A stretch of DNA of 64,000 nucleotides from Burkholderiales bacterium. GTDB lineage: Bacteria > Pseudomonadota > Gammaproteobacteria > Burkholderiales > Methylophilaceae. Of this stretch, positions 23,141 through 35,810 are shown one piece after another. Where the stretch lies: assembly GCA_030831475.1 (NCBI GenBank), contig JAURKY010000001.1:1-64000 (forward strand), given 5' to 3'. Every line of letters begins with the position of its first letter. Within the stretch, counting starts at the first letter, position 1. Both the position numbers and the translations under genes were made by a program. The notes under the pieces were generated by a model, which saw only the letters and a list, made by a program, of their open reading frames with translations, was not told the DNA's origin and did no database searches.

Positions 23141-24199
23141 ATGTTAAAAAACGATACGATATTAAAGACTCTCAGAGGTGAAAAAACTCCCTATACCCCT
23201 GTCTGGATTATGCGCCAAGCGGGTAGATACCTGCCCGAGTATCGCGAGACTAGAAAAAATGCAGGAAGCTTTTTAGACCTTTGTAAAAATAAAGATTTTG
23301 CTACCGAAGTCACTCTCCAACCTTTGGATCGCTACCCCTTGCTGGATGCTGCGATTCTCTTTTCCGATATTTTAACAATTCCAGATGCCATGGGTTTGGG
23401 TCTTTATTTTGCTGATGGCGAGGGACCTAAGTTTGAACGCCCTTTAACAAATGAAAAAGAGGTTCATAAATTAGATGTACCAGACGTGGAACAAGATTTG
23501 GCCTATGTTTTTGATGCGGTTAAAAGTATCAAGCAAGCATTAAATGAACGAGTGCCCCTCTTGGGTTTTGCTGGAAGCCCATGGACATTAGCCACTTATA
23601 TGATTGAAGGGCAAGGTGGGACAGATTTTTTAAATATAAAAAAGATGCTGTATGCGAGACCTGATTTATTGCATCACATTCTCAAAATTACAGCAGAGTC
23701 GGTAAGTCAGTATTTATCTTTTCAAATTAAAGCGGGTGCAGATGCTGTGATGATTTTTGACTCATGGGGCGGCGCTTTAGCTGACAATGAGTACGAACCT
23801 TTTTCATTAAATTACATGAAGGTCATCATTAATAATTTAAATATTATGGGTCATGAAAGTACCCCTAAAATTTTATTTACTAAAGGTGGCGGTCAGTGGT
23901 TAGATAAGCAGTTACAAAGTGGCGCCGATGCTCTTGGACTTGATTGGCAAACAAACATTAAGCAGGCCAAAGCGATCGTCAAAGATCAGGTTACCCTGCA
24001 AGGCAATATGGATCCCTCTATATTGTTGTCGGATACCAAAGCAATTGAAAAGAATGTGAAGTCAATTATTGATGATTATGGTCATGGCGAACGACACATA
24101 TTTAACCTCGGTCATGGTATTACTCAATTTACCCCTCCTGACAATGTCACTTGTATGTTAGAGACATTAAGATCTCATAGCCCCCAATATCATCTGTAA
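23141..24199 (+). CDS. hemE: Uroporphyrinogen decarboxylase
   Basis: [35 protein letters not shown]. Confidence 0.96.
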
Positions 24200-24201
24200 A
24201 T

Positions 24202-24234
24202 TTGTCATAAATCTATAACAATTAAGTCATAACA
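24202..24234 (+). promoter_or_regulatory. Putative PHO box (three 11-bp PhoB-like units)
   Basis: TTGTCATAAAT|CTATAACAATT|AAGTCATAACA; first unit 10/11 to CTGTCATAAAT. Confidence 0.55.
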
Positions 24235-24244
24235 TTCGTTTGTT

Positions 24245-24805
24245 ATGGATAAATTTTTAAAAGATTCTTTTAAATATTTAAATAGGGTTGATTATTCAGC
24301 CTGTTGTTATTTGAATCATTTAAGTCGCATTACTTTTATCAGACTTTTTTTCAAAGCCACTAGTCGATTAGGGGATGGTGTCTTTTGGTATTGTTTGATG
24401 ATTTTCATTATTGGTATCAATGGATATCAAGGCATCAAACCCGTTTTAATGATGTTAATTTTTAGTGGAATGGGTACGATCATTTATAAAATTTTAAAAA
24501 ATAAAATATCCAGGCCCCGGCCATATCAAGTTCATCAAGCCATCGTTAATCGTGGAAAAATTCTAGATCATTTTAGCTTTCCCTCGGGCCATACATTGCA
24601 TGCCGTCATTTTTTCAATGATTGCAATGTACTATTATCCTGAGCTAACTTTCTTGGTTTTACCTTTTACATTGCTTGTTGCCATGTCAAGAGTGATTTTA
24701 GGTATTCATTATCCAACGGATGTAATCGTCTCGCTTTTAATTGGGTTATTCATAGCGGACATTGCAGTTTCAGCAGACAATATTTTTTCCTTAGGTTTTA
24801 ATTAA
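24245..24805 (+). CDS. PAP2 superfamily phosphatase (lipid phosphatase-like)
   Basis: KNKISRPRPYQ, FPSGHTLHAV, SRVILGIHYPTDV acid phosphatase motifs; multiple TM segments. Confidence 0.85.
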   Translation: MDKFLKDSFKYLNRVDYSACCYLNHLSRITFIRLFFKATSRLGDGVFWYCLMIFIIGINGYQGIKPVLMMLIFSGMGTIIYKILKNKISRPRPYQVHQAIVNRGKILDHFSFPSGHTLHAVIFSMIAMYYYPELTFLVLPFTLLVAMSRVILGIHYPTDVIVSLLIGLFIADIAVSADNIFSLGFN

Positions 24806-25996
24806 TTGAAAATTTTATTTATTTCGGATGTTTACTATCCGCGTATCAATGGTGTTTCAACATCAATAAAAAGTTTTAAAGAAAATCTTGAGCAATTAGG
24901 TCATGAAGTGCGTTTAATTGCCCCTGAATATAACAATCATCTTTGTTCAGAAAAATGGATAAAAAGAGTGCCATCATTTCAGGTTCCTTATGATCCGGAA
25001 GATCGCCTCATGAATTATTTTGAATTAAAAAAATTGAAAAAATGGGTTGAATCGGAGAAATTTGATCTTATTCATATTCATACTCCATTCATGGCTCACT
25101 ACTTTGGTCTTAATTTAAGAAAGACCTTATCTATTCCATGCATTGAAACTTACCATACTTTTTTTGAAGACTATTTACACCATTACATTCCATGGCTACC
25201 TGAAAAATTTGGTAGACGTTTTGCTAGATGGATATCAAGAAGGCAGTGTAATTCTGTGGATGGAGTGGTTGTACCATCTAAACCCATGCTTGATGTATTA
25301 ACTCAATATGGTATTGATAAAACCATGTCTGTGATTCCTACCGGTATCGATGAGCATTTTCTTACTAAACGAAATTCTGATGTCTTTAAATTAAATTATC
25401 AATTACAAATGAATAAAAAAATTCTTCTTTATGTTGGAAGAGTTGCAAAGGAAAAAAATATAGAATTTTTATTACATGTGGTTAAAAATTTATCAAAGGA
25501 ATATAAAGATATTTTACTTTTAATCACTGGCGAAGGACCTGCTGACAAAGATCTGAATTTAAAAATAAAAGAGTTTGGGATCCATGAATTTGTTAAAAGA
25601 CTACCGTATCTTGATCAAAGAAATGAACTCCCACAATGTTATTCGGCTGCTGATGTATTTGTGTTTTCATCTAAAAGTGAAACACAGGGTATTGTTCCAT
25701 TGGAGGCAATGGCACAAGGTACCCCGGTGGTTGCAATTGCTGAAATGGGGATAAAATCTGTCATAAGTAATAATAACGGGGCATTAGCTTCAAAAGATTC
25801 TGTAAAAGATTTTTCAGAAAAAGTTGAAAAATTATTAGTAAATAAAAAGTTTTATGAAGAGCAATCAAATAAAGCAATTGATTATGTTAAAAATAATTGG
25901 ACTGCAATTAAACAAGCAGAAAAAGTTATGATGTTTTACTCTGAAATTATTAATAACTTTAAGAAAGATGAATTATTCTTATTAAGTAAAACTTAA
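24806..25996 (+). CDS. GT4-family glycosyltransferase resembling diacylglycerol glucosyltransferases
   Basis: FISDVYYPRINGVSTSI; IETYHTFFEDYLHHYIP; EX7E motif ETQGIVPLE; TTG start directly after the PAP2 stop. Confidence 0.8.
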   Translation: MKILFISDVYYPRINGVSTSIKSFKENLEQLGHEVRLIAPEYNNHLCSEKWIKRVPSFQVPYDPEDRLMNYFELKKLKKWVESEKFDLIHIHTPFMAHYFGLNLRKTLSIPCIETYHTFFEDYLHHYIPWLPEKFGRRFARWISRRQCNSVDGVVVPSKPMLDVLTQYGIDKTMSVIPTGIDEHFLTKRNSDVFKLNYQLQMNKKILLYVGRVAKEKNIEFLLHVVKNLSKEYKDILLLITGEGPADKDLNLKIKEFGIHEFVKRLPYLDQRNELPQCYSAADVFVFSSKSETQGIVPLEAMAQGTPVVAIAEMGIKSVISNNNGALASKDSVKDFSEKVEKLLVNKKFYEEQSNKAIDYVKNNWTAIKQAEKVMMFYSEIINNFKKDELFLLSKT

Positions 25997-26700
25997 ATTG
26001 ATTTAGAAATAAGTTGAAAACAATTATCTGATAATTTTTTCCGATCAAGATTAGCTTCAATCATATCCAAAATGTTTAATCTAACCTCTAACCTGTTATG
26101 TTTGATTATTAAAAAAAATGACTCAAGCAAATTGATGTCATCATAATAACTAGCAATAGTTGTTTTTTTATTGTTATGAAAATATGAAATTGAGATAGGA
26201 ATAATATTTTTCTTACTATCGATTGCAGCTTGAAATAAATTACTTTTAAAAGGTAAGAGAGAATTCCCATCCGTTGCCTTTCCTTCAGGAAAAAAACACA
26301 CCGAATTCATTTTTAATTGCTTGATGACTTTGTCATTTATTTTTTTTAAATTTGTTTTTGAAGACCTATTCACAAAAATTGTATCTGCACAAAAGGTAAG
26401 AAGATTAATAAATGGCCATTTTTTTATTTCATCAGTAGCGATAAAACTGACATGAGATTGTGAATTGATGACTACAATATCAAGCCATGAAACATGATTG
26501 GCGGCAATGAGAAAATTTTGCTGTGAAGTTAAGGTTTTTAAATTTTTATTTACACTCACCTTGATTTTGAGAATTGATAAGATTATTTTTGACCAAATTG
26601 AAATAATATTTTGTTTTAAATGACGATTAAGCAGGAAAAGAAAAGGGCTTATGAAAAGCCCTAGAATTAATGTAATTAGAATAAGAATAAATTTGATCAT
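25993..26700 (-). CDS. 1-acyl-sn-glycerol-3-phosphate acyltransferase-like (PlsC family)
   Basis: NHVSWLD (HX4D) and FPEGKATDG motifs. Confidence 0.8.
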   Translation of the reverse strand: MIKFILILITLILGLFISPFLFLLNRHLKQNIISIWSKIILSILKIKVSVNKNLKTLTSQQNFLIAANHVSWLDIVVINSQSHVSFIATDEIKKWPFINLLTFCADTIFVNRSSKTNLKKINDKVIKQLKMNSVCFFPEGKATDGNSLLPFKSNLFQAAIDSKKNIIPISISYFHNNKKTTIASYYDDINLLESFFLIIKHNRLEVRLNILDMIEANLDRKKLSDNCFQLISKSI

Positions 26701-26709
26701 GGGATAAAT

Positions 26710-28287
26710 TTAATGATGGCTTCCCTCTTCAATACCAATGCCTGTTTGAGCTCTAAAATATTGGCTATCAAATTTCTTATGTTCATCCTTGGCAGTTTTT
26801 GATTTATCAGTCACCGAGAAAAACCAAATTAAAATAAAAGTCACCGCCATGGAGAAGAGGGCAGGATATTTGTAGGGAAATATGGCCTCTGAATTCTTTA
26901 GGATGTCGACCCAAACAACAGGACCTAGAATAACTAAAAGAACAGCAAGCATAAGACCAGCCCCACCACCAATCACAGCACCTCTTGTGGTTAATTTTTT
27001 CCAATAAATAGAAAGTAAAAGTATGGGGAAGTTGGTACTTGCAGCAATTGCAAAGGCGAGCCCAACCATGAAGGCTACATTTTGTTTTTCAAAAATAATA
27101 CCAAGAAAAATCGCAATGATCCCTAGTGCAACGGTAGCGACTTTTGAAATCATCATTTCTTTTTTTTCATTGACCGATTTTGAAAAAACGTTTGCATAAA
27201 GATCATGCGAAATGGCTGAAGCACCTGCAAGTGTTAATCCAGACACCACGGCAAGAATGGTGGCAAAGGCTACCGCTGAAATAAAGCCTAATAATAAATC
27301 TCCGCCAACTGCATGCGCTAAATGAATGGCTGCCATATTATTATTACCAACGAGGGTACCGTCAGCATTGAGATATTCTGGATTGGAAGAGACAAGAATG
27401 ATGGCACCAAAACCAATGATAAAAGTGAGTAAATAAAAGTAACCAATAAAACCTGTTGCGTAAACAACCGACTTTCTTGCTTCAACGGCATCTTTGACTG
27501 TAAAAAAACGCATGAGGATATGCGGGAGACCTGCCGTACCAAACATCAATGCTAGACCTAAAGAGATAGCCGAGACCGGATCTGATATTAGCCCACCTGG
27601 CGCTAAAATAGCATTTCCATTGTCATGAAAATTGACGGCAGCACTAAAAAAACTATCAAAGTTAAAGTTAAAGTTAATTAAAACCAAAAAGGCAATTAAC
27701 GATGCGCCAGATAGCAATAAGATGGCTTTAATGATTTGTACCCAGGTGGTGGCTAACATGCCACCAAGGGTGACGTATAGAATCATAAGACCACCAACAA
27801 TAATGACAGCCACGTAATAAGGGAGTCCAAATAAAATTTCAATTAATTTTCCGGCACCCACCATTTGTGCAATGAGATAAAGAATGACCGTAAATAGGGA
27901 ACCGAGTGCAGCTAATGTTCTTATAGGCGTTTGCTGAAGTCTAAACGATGCAACATCGGCAAAGGTATACTTTCCGAGATTTCTTAAGGGCTCCGCAATC
28001 AATAATAAAATGATGGGCCACCCTACCAGAAAACCAATTGAATAAATTAACCCATCAAAACCAGAGAGGTAAACTAGTCCAGAGATACCTAAAAAAGAAG
28101 CCGCTGACATAAAGTCACCCGAGATGGCTAAACCATTTTGCAGTCCTGTAATGTTTCCACCTGCGGTATAAAAACCCTTAGCAGTTTTAGTTTGGTTCGC
28201 AGCCCAATAGGTAATAAATAAGGTAATCAATACAAAAATTGAGAACATTAAAATGGCAATGAAATTGAGGTCTTGGCTTTCTTGCAT
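26710..28287 (-). CDS. actP: Sodium:solute symporter, ActP-type cation/acetate symporter
   Basis: [32 protein letters not shown]; 13-14 TM segments. Confidence 0.8.
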
Positions 28288-28592: not shown

Positions 28593-30329
28593 TTAATCAA
28601 TACTGTAAACATTAACATAGTCACCTTGTTTAAATCCAAAGATTTTATTGCCTCCTGCAACCACAGCAATGTATTGTTTACCATCAATCATAAAGGTGAT
28701 GGGCGGAGCATTTACCCCAGCATCAATTTTAGTCGTCCATAATAGCTCACCTGTTTTTGCATTAAAGGCGTTAAAGCTACCATTACCCTCGCCGTTAAAT
28801 ATTAAATCGCCAGCAGTTGAGAGTGTGCCACCAATGAGAGGTTCTTCAGTATGATGCTGCCATTGAATTTTGCCTGTCTCCAAATTTATTGCTGACAAGA
28901 GCCCCCATTTTTCATCGTCGGTAGGTTCCGATTTTACGTACCTTTGAGTTTTGTATCCATCATTGTGTTCCATGAGTGTATATTTAATAGGCGCATGAAT
29001 ACCAGAGATAAAGGCTAAATGTTCATCAATGTTGATACTGACTGGAGACCAATTAGATCCGCCCAAGATACCGGGATAAATAATAGTTCCAGCCTCAGTG
29101 GCTTCGGCAAACATATTTTGTTGTGGCACAAAAGCTTCTGATTTTAGAATTAATTCACCGGTATCGCGGTGGTGAATATAAAACCAACCAGTTTTACTTG
29201 CCTGACCTACAACAGGAATAATTTTATTGTTGTGCACCGTGTGAAATAAAACAGGAGGGCTGGCAACATCATAACCCCATAGGTCGTGCGGGACTTGTTG
29301 GAAATACCATTTGAGTTTTCCGGTATTAGCATCGAGTGCCACAAGTGAAACCGTGTATAAATTATCTCCAGGACGGCTTTCACCGTTCATTTGCGGAGAC
29401 GGATTACCGGTCCCAAAAAAGAGGGTATGAGTATCGCTATCAATAGCAGGTGTCGTCCAAGCAGATCCTCCACCGTATTGGGCCGCGTCAGGATAGTTAT
29501 TAAGATTTTCTTTTTCATAAAGAAGGTCTCGATTTAAGAGCTCACCATCTTTGGTATAGTTGCTCATTTCACCTTCCCAGCCCTGATCTGGAATGGTGTT
29601 AAATTGCCATATTTTTTTACCTGAATAAATATCATAGGCAGCCAAAAAACCAGGCCGACCAAATCGACCGGCTACACCGACGACGGCACCTAAGGGTGCA
29701 TTTTTATCATCATCAATATGTAATCCATAACCTACACCGGTTATGCCTACGATGACTTTATTTTCATAAACAATTGGCGCCATGTTAATGCCTACACCGG
29801 TGCCACCGCTCATGGTTTTATCACGATTAGGGTCGTCGATCGCTAAATTATCAATGTTTTCTGTTAGTACGTTATTTTCAACTACGTTGATATCCCAAAT
29901 AATTTTTCCTGTTTTAGCATCGAGAGAAATAAGTCTTGCATCAACGGTACCCATAAAAATTTGATCACCATGTATGGCTACACCCCGATTAGCAGGGCCA
30001 CAGCATAATTTCCAATCCCGATTTCGATCATGCTCATAGCGCCATAGCTCCTTACCCGTTTTGGCATTAATCGCAATTAAATGATTAAACGGCATTGAGA
30101 TGTACATGATGCCATCTTTTACGATGGGGGTGGCTTGAAAGGTTCCACGAATACCTGTGCGATATTGCCACGCTAATTTAAGTTGATCCACATTGGTACT
30201 ATTAATTTGATCAAGCCTTGAGAATCTTTGATTAGTTAGGTCATTACCATAGGATGACCAGTCTACATTTTGTTGTTGGCACCCTATGAAAAGAAATGCG
30301 GAAAAGAAAAAAATAAAAAATAACTTCAT
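28593..30329 (-). CDS. PQQ-dependent dehydrogenase-like lipoprotein
   Basis: Lipobox FLFIGC; WSSYGNDLTNQRFSRLDQINSTNVDQLKLAWQY; vicinal cysteines KLCCGPANRG; tryptophan-docking-like repeats. Confidence 0.8.
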   Translation of the reverse strand: MKLFFIFFFSAFLFIGCQQQNVDWSSYGNDLTNQRFSRLDQINSTNVDQLKLAWQYRTGIRGTFQATPIVKDGIMYISMPFNHLIAINAKTGKELWRYEHDRNRDWKLCCGPANRGVAIHGDQIFMGTVDARLISLDAKTGKIIWDINVVENNVLTENIDNLAIDDPNRDKTMSGGTGVGINMAPIVYENKVIVGITGVGYGLHIDDDKNAPLGAVVGVAGRFGRPGFLAAYDIYSGKKIWQFNTIPDQGWEGEMSNYTKDGELLNRDLLYEKENLNNYPDAAQYGGGSAWTTPAIDSDTHTLFFGTGNPSPQMNGESRPGDNLYTVSLVALDANTGKLKWYFQQVPHDLWGYDVASPPVLFHTVHNNKIIPVVGQASKTGWFYIHHRDTGELILKSEAFVPQQNMFAEATEAGTIIYPGILGGSNWSPVSINIDEHLAFISGIHAPIKYTLMEHNDGYKTQRYVKSEPTDDEKWGLLSAINLETGKIQWQHHTEEPLIGGTLSTAGDLIFNGEGNGSFNAFNAKTGELLWTTKIDAGVNAPPITFMIDGKQYIAVVAGGNKIFGFKQGDYVNVYSID

Positions 30330-34390: not shown

Positions 34391-35058
34391 TCAGGTAGAT
34401 AATTGATACCCTCACTTCCTAAAAGATAGATCCCTAAAAAAAATAAGGCGAAGTAAAACACACTAAAGATAAGCCAAAAAAATGAGATTAAGATAAATAG
34501 GCCATCTTGCTCAAATTGGGCAAGTGCGCCAAATAAAATAGCCAGACCTGGAAAAAAATTATTTAAGGGCAGTACTCCAAAAGGAATCGCCATTAAAAGA
34601 CCTCCCGCAATTAAGATGAAGCCTTCACACTTTAAACCTAGGCCACTGGAGACTAAATTTTTCAATCTTGGCCGAGTAATTTTTTTTGAAACTTTAATAA
34701 TAAACATACAAACTTGGGTTATTTTTTGCCAGTGATGTTGTTGAAGTGAGATATTTAAAATTTTTTTGGGTAAGACAGGAATTTTTTGTTGTTTTAAAAG
34801 TTGTAAGCCTAGTGCGGCAAAAGTCATTCCCCCAATCACGCTGATGGGGCCGACAGGAATGGGCTGCATAAAGGGCAAAACTAAAAGAAGAGCGATGAGC
34901 GAGAAGCCAAAATGATTTAGTTTTTTTAAAACAGCACCAATGGTGCTTGCTTTGGTTGATTCACTGATGGACTTGAGGATCAAAATAAGCTGATCATAAG
35001 ATGACATAATTAATAAAAGTAATAGAGTGTGATGAGTCCTACCAGGATGCGATACCAC
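34369..35058 (-). CDS. Exopolysaccharide synthesis ExoD family protein
   Basis: GFSLIALLLVLPFMQPIPVGPISVIGG typical of ExoD family. Confidence 0.75.
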   Translation of the reverse strand: MVSHPGRTHHTLLLLLIMSSYDQLILILKSISESTKASTIGAVLKKLNHFGFSLIALLLVLPFMQPIPVGPISVIGGMTFAALGLQLLKQQKIPVLPKKILNISLQQHHWQKITQVCMFIIKVSKKITRPRLKNLVSSGLGLKCEGFILIAGGLLMAIPFGVLPLNNFFPGLAILFGALAQFEQDGLFILISFFWLIFSVFYFALFFLGIYLLGSEGINYLPEWLAHWT

Positions 35059-35810
35059 CCAAAGATCACAAAATTATGACGTGAAATAAAACTAATAAAA
35101 ATTTTAATAACAATCAGAGCACTGATAAAAGAAGTGATAAAGCCGATTGCAAAAACAGGTATATCACTACTATTTAGTAGATCTATATTTTTAAATAAAT
35201 CAAAAAAAGAGGCGGCGACTATGATGGGTATGGCAAGAAAAAAAGAAAATTCTGCTGCCGTTTTGCGATCAAGTCCCACCATAAGTCCACCCATGATTGT
35301 TGAGGCCGCCCTTGAAACACCAGGAATAAGAGAAAAACATTGAGCTAAGCCAATCATGAATGCTTGAGGTTTTGATATTTGATCGACATCGATGGGTTTT
35401 CTCTCAGGTAATTTTTTTTCAATGAAGATTAGAATCACCCCACCAATGATGAGTGCATAGGCCACTGTAATTGGGTTGAATAAATAAAACTTAATGTATT
35501 CATGAAATAAAAGCCCCAAAAGTGCGGCGGGAAAGAATGCAATAAAAATAAGCAGGGTAAAATTTTGCGCTATGGATGAATTTGGAAGACCAATAAATGT
35601 ATCTGTTATTTTTTTTCGGTATTCAATGAGTACGGCTAAGATGGCACCGAGCTGAATAAAGATTTCAAATACTTGGCTGCTGTTTGTTCCAAAATCTAGA
35701 ACATCAGCGGCAATAATTAAATGACCTGTAGAGCTTACAGGTAAAAATTCTGTCGCACCCTCGATAATGCCTAAAATGAATGCTGCCCATAAAAGATAAA
35801 GATCCATCAA
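35010..35810 (-). CDS. uppP: Undecaprenyl-diphosphatase
   Basis: GIIEGATEFLPVSSTGHLI; PGVSRAASTI. Confidence 0.93.
   Translation of the reverse strand: MMDLYLLWAAFILGIIEGATEFLPVSSTGHLIIAADVLDFGTNSSQVFEIFIQLGAILAVLIEYRKKITDTFIGLPNSSIAQNFTLLIFIAFFPAALLGLLFHEYIKFYLFNPITVAYALIIGGVILIFIEKKLPERKPIDVDQISKPQAFMIGLAQCFSLIPGVSRAASTIMGGLMVGLDRKTAAEFSFFLAIPIIVAASFFDLFKNIDLLNSSDIPVFAIGFITSFISALIVIKIFISFISRHNFVIFGWYRILVGLITLYYFY

Follow-up and report, generated by a model that had tools for sequence, protein, structure and literature searches.

A two-gene operon in the 64-kb stretch of DNA analysed here (the window) is probably controlled by PhoB and devoted to glycolipid synthesis in a streamlined methylotroph of the family Methylophilaceae, pairing a glycosyltransferase (GT) that would glycosylate diacylglycerol (DAG) with a PAP2-superfamily phosphatase that would yield it. 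The assembly carrying the window (G000) is 707 kb and 59% complete, and the named relatives with the operon are likewise Methylophilaceae: Methylophilales MAGs, strain KB13, Candidatus Methylopumilus and Methylotenera. Invisible from the window sequence alone, and the more interesting result, is an alternation beside this operon across the family between plcP and a putative phospholipase C gene of the unrelated PF00882 type.

Operon layout and predicted Pho regulation

The PAP2 gene (24245..24805, forward strand; 186 aa) ends in a TAA stop at 24805 that is directly abutted by the TTG start, at 24806, of a GT4 glycosyltransferase gene (24806..25996, forward strand; 396 aa; PF13439 and PF00534), a predicted glycosyl-diacylglycerol synthase. 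The original prediction described this layout correctly in coordinates and letters, and the TYHTFFEDY and IPTG motifs to which it pointed are both present in the glycosyltransferase translation. Upstream, the locus is bordered by hemE (23141..24199, forward strand), and the order gltB-gltD-hemE-PAP2-GT is common to the window and three relatives of the genus. Downstream, a gene for a lysophospholipid/OlsA-like acyltransferase (LPLAT; 25993..26700, reverse strand; PF01553 at 79 bits, NF052553 at 120 bits against a cut-off of 300) is convergent with the glycosyltransferase gene and overlaps it by 4 bp, and a sodium:solute symporter gene (26710..28287, reverse strand) forms the other border. Beyond it, at 28593-30329 on the reverse strand, lies a PQQ-dependent methanol/ethanol-type dehydrogenase gene with a lipoprotein-like N terminus (TIGR03075, 414 bits, under the 480-bit cut-off), which is kept as a neighbour in the relatives G009 and G025.

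A Pho box occupies the 45-bp gap that separates the hemE stop (24199) from the PAP2 ATG (24245). The original prediction read three PhoB-like units here, TTGTCATAAAT CTATAACAATT AAGTCATAACA, at 24202-24234. With a native weight matrix, built from 23 half-sites in the phoB promoters of eight genus genomes and trained with the PAP2 site excluded, this three-unit site scores 17.4 bits and ranks first among 127,936 positions on both strands of the window, the runner-up reaching 4.2. A second matrix, of E. coli half-sites, places it first within the window with three units and eighth with two.

It stands as the best three-unit match in the window, but alignment of the orthologous promoters led us to revise it to a two-unit box and a -10 element. 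No third repeat appears in these promoters, and the stretch in its place is spacer plus TANNNT. The two-unit box (24202..24219, forward strand) consists of two 7-bp half-sites at 11-bp spacing, TTGTCAT and CTATAAC around AAAT, and ranks second of 127,958 positions with the native matrix. The window promoter reads TTGTCATAAATCTATAAC, the spacer aattaagtca and then TAACAT, the predicted -10 element (24230..24235, forward strand), 10 bp past the 18-bp box. The same arrangement, an 18-bp box, exactly 10 bp and TANNNT, is found in eight of nine genus PAP2 promoters, against none or one of nine at other offsets from 4 to 16; for the ninth, L040, the simple score chose another site, and by eye TTGTCATAAATGTTTAAC, 10 bp and TATATT are present. 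The proposed third unit AAGTCATAACA (24224..24234, forward strand), which overlaps the spacer and the -10 element and raises the three-unit score, is thus probably not a PhoB repeat.

An orthologous box is present in all nine genus PAP2 promoters, each of which scores above the 95th percentile for 112 other upstream regions (p = 7e-7, kinship ignored). The box might be thought to sit too near the ATG; we set this concern aside because most genus orthologues keep a nearly equal distance, 18-21 bp from the end of the 22-bp unit, so that the short distance is a shared trait. Transcription would be expected to start at or within a few bases of the PAP2 ATG, giving a near-leaderless mRNA, and no Shine-Dalgarno sequence was seen before this ATG.

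PhoB itself is encoded in the window's genome (G000:C5:69737-70414; 314.9 bits against a cut-off of 296.2), and its gene has a three-unit box of its own. Control of the PAP2-GT pair by PhoB, as originally predicted, is well supported by the top-ranking Pho box, the fixed spacing to the -10 element and the presence of PhoB in the genome. Within the genus, boxes are also enriched at plcP (p = 1e-6), agt (p = 1e-6), ppx (p = 7e-8) and ppk2 (p = 2e-4), kinship ignored; upstream of the glycosyltransferase itself they are not (p = 0.12, kinship again ignored), in keeping with its second place in the operon. Of 80 named loci, 34 have the highest-scoring two-unit box of the entire locus at the 5' end of a module gene, where 3.9 would be expected. 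In one subclade (G001, G003, G006, G011 and G016; L142-L146) no Pho box is visible in the 120 bp upstream of phoB, yet these genomes carry boxes at PAP2, plcP and agt.

Candidate activities of the two enzymes

Clusters around the pair in relatives contain genes for a PlcP-like metallophosphoesterase, an Agt-type glycosyltransferase, OlsB-like and OlsA-like acyltransferases, Ppx, Ppk1, PPK2, DgkA and UDP-glucose dehydrogenase (ugd). In Methylotenera mobilis 13 the pair adjoins a putative pstB, called by sequence likeness, for which Pfam gives only ABC transporter. With plcP, agt, olsB, dgkA, ppk/ppx, pstB and ugd as neighbours in relatives and a glycosyltransferase resembling glycolipid synthases, the originally predicted role in lipid remodelling is well supported by comparative evidence. 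OlsB-like and OlsA-like genes in the same Pho-regulated cluster recall the OlsBA ornithine-lipid genes, but beside the window operon only the OlsA-like acyltransferase is left.

The best NCBIfam model for the glycosyltransferase is NF049988, alpha-monoglucosyl-DAG synthase, which aligns over the full length at 173.5 bits and also matches 13 of 13 members of the enzyme's clade. As this score lies far below the equivalog cut-off of 400, we read the relation as likeness and not membership, and DAG and glucose as candidate acceptor and sugar; the family's organism and regulation are also different. The second match is N-acetylglucosaminyl-phosphatidylglycerol synthase, at 139 bits. An AlphaFold2 model of the enzyme has a mean pLDDT of 87. 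GT4 enzymes form a large family that serves many acceptors, and many capsule and LPS models match weakly, which might suggest that the enzyme makes a polysaccharide or LPS component behind an accidental Pho box. We consider this very improbable, since none of these models reaches 80 bits, compared with 173.5 for the glucosyl-DAG synthase, and since the locus has conserved boxes and lies among lipid and phosphate genes.

Lipid remodelling by PlcP and Agt has been described in Phaeobacter MED193, SAR11 HTCC7211, P. aeruginosa and Methylosinus (PMC4796936, PMC8231724, PMC8528852, PMC9239053). The window operon is similar in that a GT4 gene controlled by a PhoB box adjoins lipid-phosphate enzymes, and its relatives also have plcP and an Agt-type gene with Pho boxes. 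It differs in that the operon partner is PAP2, and in the enzyme itself, whose motif, length and position in the tree led us to reject the proposed Agt-type identity. In characterised Agt-type enzymes, which are about 334 residues long, the motif reads FPSxTDTFG (PMC8231724); the window enzyme has 396 residues and FSSKSETQG in its place, and the two types form separate clades with 100/100 support. A second glycosyltransferase of the relatives (c2) does have the Agt features, both the length of about 334 residues and FPSxTDTFG, and its gene adjoins the window-type gene in PlcP-positive relatives. Window-type glycosyltransferase, PlcP and Agt co-occur in the same 6 of 14 genus genomes that are at least 90% complete. 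The closest named plasmid homologue of the window glycosyltransferase, from Thiodictyon, is divergent to a gene annotated as UDP-2,3-diacylglucosamine diphosphatase, and this annotation also occurs beside the P. aeruginosa plasmid matches of the Agt-type protein.

The phosphatase belongs to the PAP2 superfamily by score (PF01569, 82.4 bits against a cut-off of 27.2) and by all three phosphatase motifs, K..RPRP, PSGH and SR..G.HYPTD, which are intact and whose columns are invariant in 11 relatives. Its substrate is most likely phosphatidic acid, giving DAG; we prefer this reading because of the operon pairing with the glycosyltransferase and the DgkA gene in many clusters. The best solved-structure match, LpxE (E 5.7e-9), and the NCBIfam matches to SepP, PgpB, BcrC-type and LpxE models, all far under their cut-offs, would also suit an enzyme that acts on undecaprenyl diphosphate, phosphatidylglycerophosphate or, in LpxE-like scavenging, lipid A phosphate, sharing with the glycosyltransferase only its control by PhoB. 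An LpxE-like role is possible, but we regard this group of substrates as unlikely. Recycling of undecaprenyl diphosphate is made less likely by the BacA/UppP undecaprenyl-diphosphate phosphatase that the window already encodes (35010-35810, reverse strand; PF02673, 273 bits), and PAP2 is the operon partner of the glycosyltransferase in the genus loci and tracks it across the family.

We propose a model where, under phosphate starvation, PhoB would bind at 24202-24219 and transcription would begin almost at the PAP2 start codon. PAP2 would dephosphorylate a lipid phosphate, most likely phosphatidic acid, to DAG and phosphate, opposing DAG kinase, and the glycosyltransferase would put a sugar on DAG to form a phosphorus-free glycolipid. 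Both activities, the identity of the sugar, the direction of flux and the induction by starvation are predictions in this model; operon layout, Pho box, spacing of the promoter, gene context and the alternation of phospholipase genes are observed. Most relatives would draw the bulk of their DAG on a phospholipase C encoded nearby, cytosolic PlcP in some and the predicted exported zinc enzyme (PF00882) in others.

Alternation of PlcP and PF00882 across the family

We tallied profile matches per genome in 150 Methylophilaceae genomes, and found the glycosyltransferase in 125, PAP2 in 120, PF00882 (over the 26.8-bit cut-off) in 100 and PlcP in 25. Among the 125 genomes with the glycosyltransferase, 22 have PlcP only, 97 PF00882 only, 2 both and 4 neither, so that 121 have at least one phospholipase C gene; the alternation of PlcP and PF00882 within this set has a Fisher p of 2e-18, phylogeny ignored. 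Counted by genus, PlcP occurs in at least 7, PF00882 in at least 19 and both in at least 3, and replacement must on these counts have happened more than once. Both genes keep close to the glycosyltransferase when on the same contig: PlcP is at most 7 kb away in all 21 cases, and PF00882 at most 5 kb away in 93 of 98. A few relatives, G036 and G175 among them, have an unlinked PF00882 gene. Outside the genus, three of four PF00882 promoters examined have boxes above the 95th percentile (p = 1e-4, kinship ignored), and no genus genome has a PF00882 match among the matches listed. In L062-L092 and other Methylophilaceae loci the PF00882 gene lies between PAP2 and the glycosyltransferase, divergent from the latter (for example L067:8968-9840).

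The gene that trades places with plcP is PF00882, not PAP2. The original prediction had PAP2 supplying DAG instead of PlcP, and as a family rule this fails: PAP2 occurs with and without PlcP, and 118 of the 125 genomes with the glycosyltransferase also have PAP2, regardless of which phospholipase C gene they carry. Its absence from the other 7 indicates that PAP2 is not strictly required.

We consider the PF00882 protein a putative exported zinc phospholipase C. In 21 sequences H34, D71, H83, H110, D114, H120, H137 and E141 are invariant and W29 is nearly so, with a signal-like N-terminal stretch ahead of this tryptophan. The His, Asp and Glu residues match the ligand spacing of B. cereus PC-PLC, HxxxD...H...HxxxE, and we have assigned metal-ligand roles on this basis. 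A fold search with a model of the protein gave no PDB match at E < 0.001, and B. cereus PC-PLC stood at rank 49 (TM 0.34/0.39, E 1.5); as this search brought no confirming match, we infer phospholipase C activity from the Pfam family.

Published surveys map the lipid-remodelling pathway by plcP (PMC4796936, PMC9239053), so that a genome without plcP is likely to be taken for one without lipid remodelling. Such surveys would miss most Methylophilaceae, which are abundant freshwater and coastal methylotrophs, if the same glycolipid synthase is fed by the PF00882 enzyme or by PAP2. Our open-access literature search, mostly of titles and abstracts, found nothing on PF00882 or PAP2 in lipid remodelling in this family. 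The swap also offers a testable comparison of cytosolic with exported phospholipid breakdown. It is tempting to speculate that Methylophilaceae have three interchangeable DAG sources for one PhoB-controlled glycolipid synthase, namely cytosolic PlcP, the unrelated exported PF00882 zinc phospholipase C or, in a few streamlined lineages including that of the window, the co-transcribed PAP2 alone, but we hold this full scheme to be rather unlikely.

Source of diacylglycerol in the window's lineage

Absence of plcP from the genome had been proposed as a check on the original prediction. In the 59%-complete assembly, the PlcP profile search gave no match, only LpxH-like and ApaH-like genes, and the Agt and PF00882 searches gave none either; plcP, agt and PF00882 were not found within the 64-kb window. 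This places the window's genome among the 4 of 125 with neither phospholipase, and the locus itself is intact without either. Since no phospholipase C was found, DAG would come from PAP2 or from an unsequenced gene.

G025 (85% complete) and G162 (98% complete) likewise have PAP2 and the glycosyltransferase and neither phospholipase, and in G162 the two genes adjoin. Together, the three genomes make a phospholipase C-free, PAP2-fed variant possible, though the window's genome is incomplete. In G009 the gene order is GT-ppk1-ppx-LPLAT-plcP-olsB-symporter, whereas in the window it is GT-LPLAT-symporter, the LPLAT and symporter genes lying only 9 bp apart. From this comparison, a block around the retained acyltransferase looks to have been deleted in the window's lineage. 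The G025 locus has the same shape, without the acyltransferase. In the glycosyltransferase tree the window's genome pairs with G020 and G025 with G009, and both G020 and G009 are PlcP-positive; the losses in G000 and G025 therefore look independent.

That PAP2 alone replaces PlcP as the starvation-specific DAG source in this organism, with no phospholipase C used, would fit the lack of PlcP, Agt and PF00882 matches, the intact locus with its symporter where G009 has further genes, the constant proximity of PlcP to the glycosyltransferase, and the apparently separate losses. We nonetheless regard it as doubtful: 41% of the genome is unseen, PAP2 family-wide goes with PlcP or PF00882 rather than replacing them, and a PAP2 acting on phosphatidic acid would divert new synthesis and would not recycle existing phospholipids. 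It is quite possible, if somewhat short of an even chance, that the module is an ordinary one whose phospholipase C gene, PlcP or PF00882, has moved off the operon into the unsequenced part. The low completeness of the assembly and the unlinked PF00882 genes of a few relatives speak for this, but PlcP never lies away from the neighbourhood in the same-contig cases, and PF00882 is missing from the listed matches of the genus. A supply from PAP2 does have a precedent in kind, since a phosphatidate-phosphatase route to DAG has been proposed for cyanobacteria without PlcP, as relayed in PMC4796936 (citing Nakamura 2007). As that account has it, glycolipid DAG would there too come from phosphatidic acid where PlcP is absent, but the proposal concerns photosynthetic membranes, whereas here a shared operon and Pho box link the phosphatase gene to that of the glycosyltransferase.

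Two further loci deserve mention. In G027 (G027:C33, L027; 88% complete) an Agt-type glycosyltransferase gene and PAP2 are adjacent, without window-type glycosyltransferase or PlcP, forming another partial module. The plcP of G009 (L032:6293-7046) matches the profile in two pieces, interrupted by an in-frame stop or a frameshift that reflects either decay or an assembly error.
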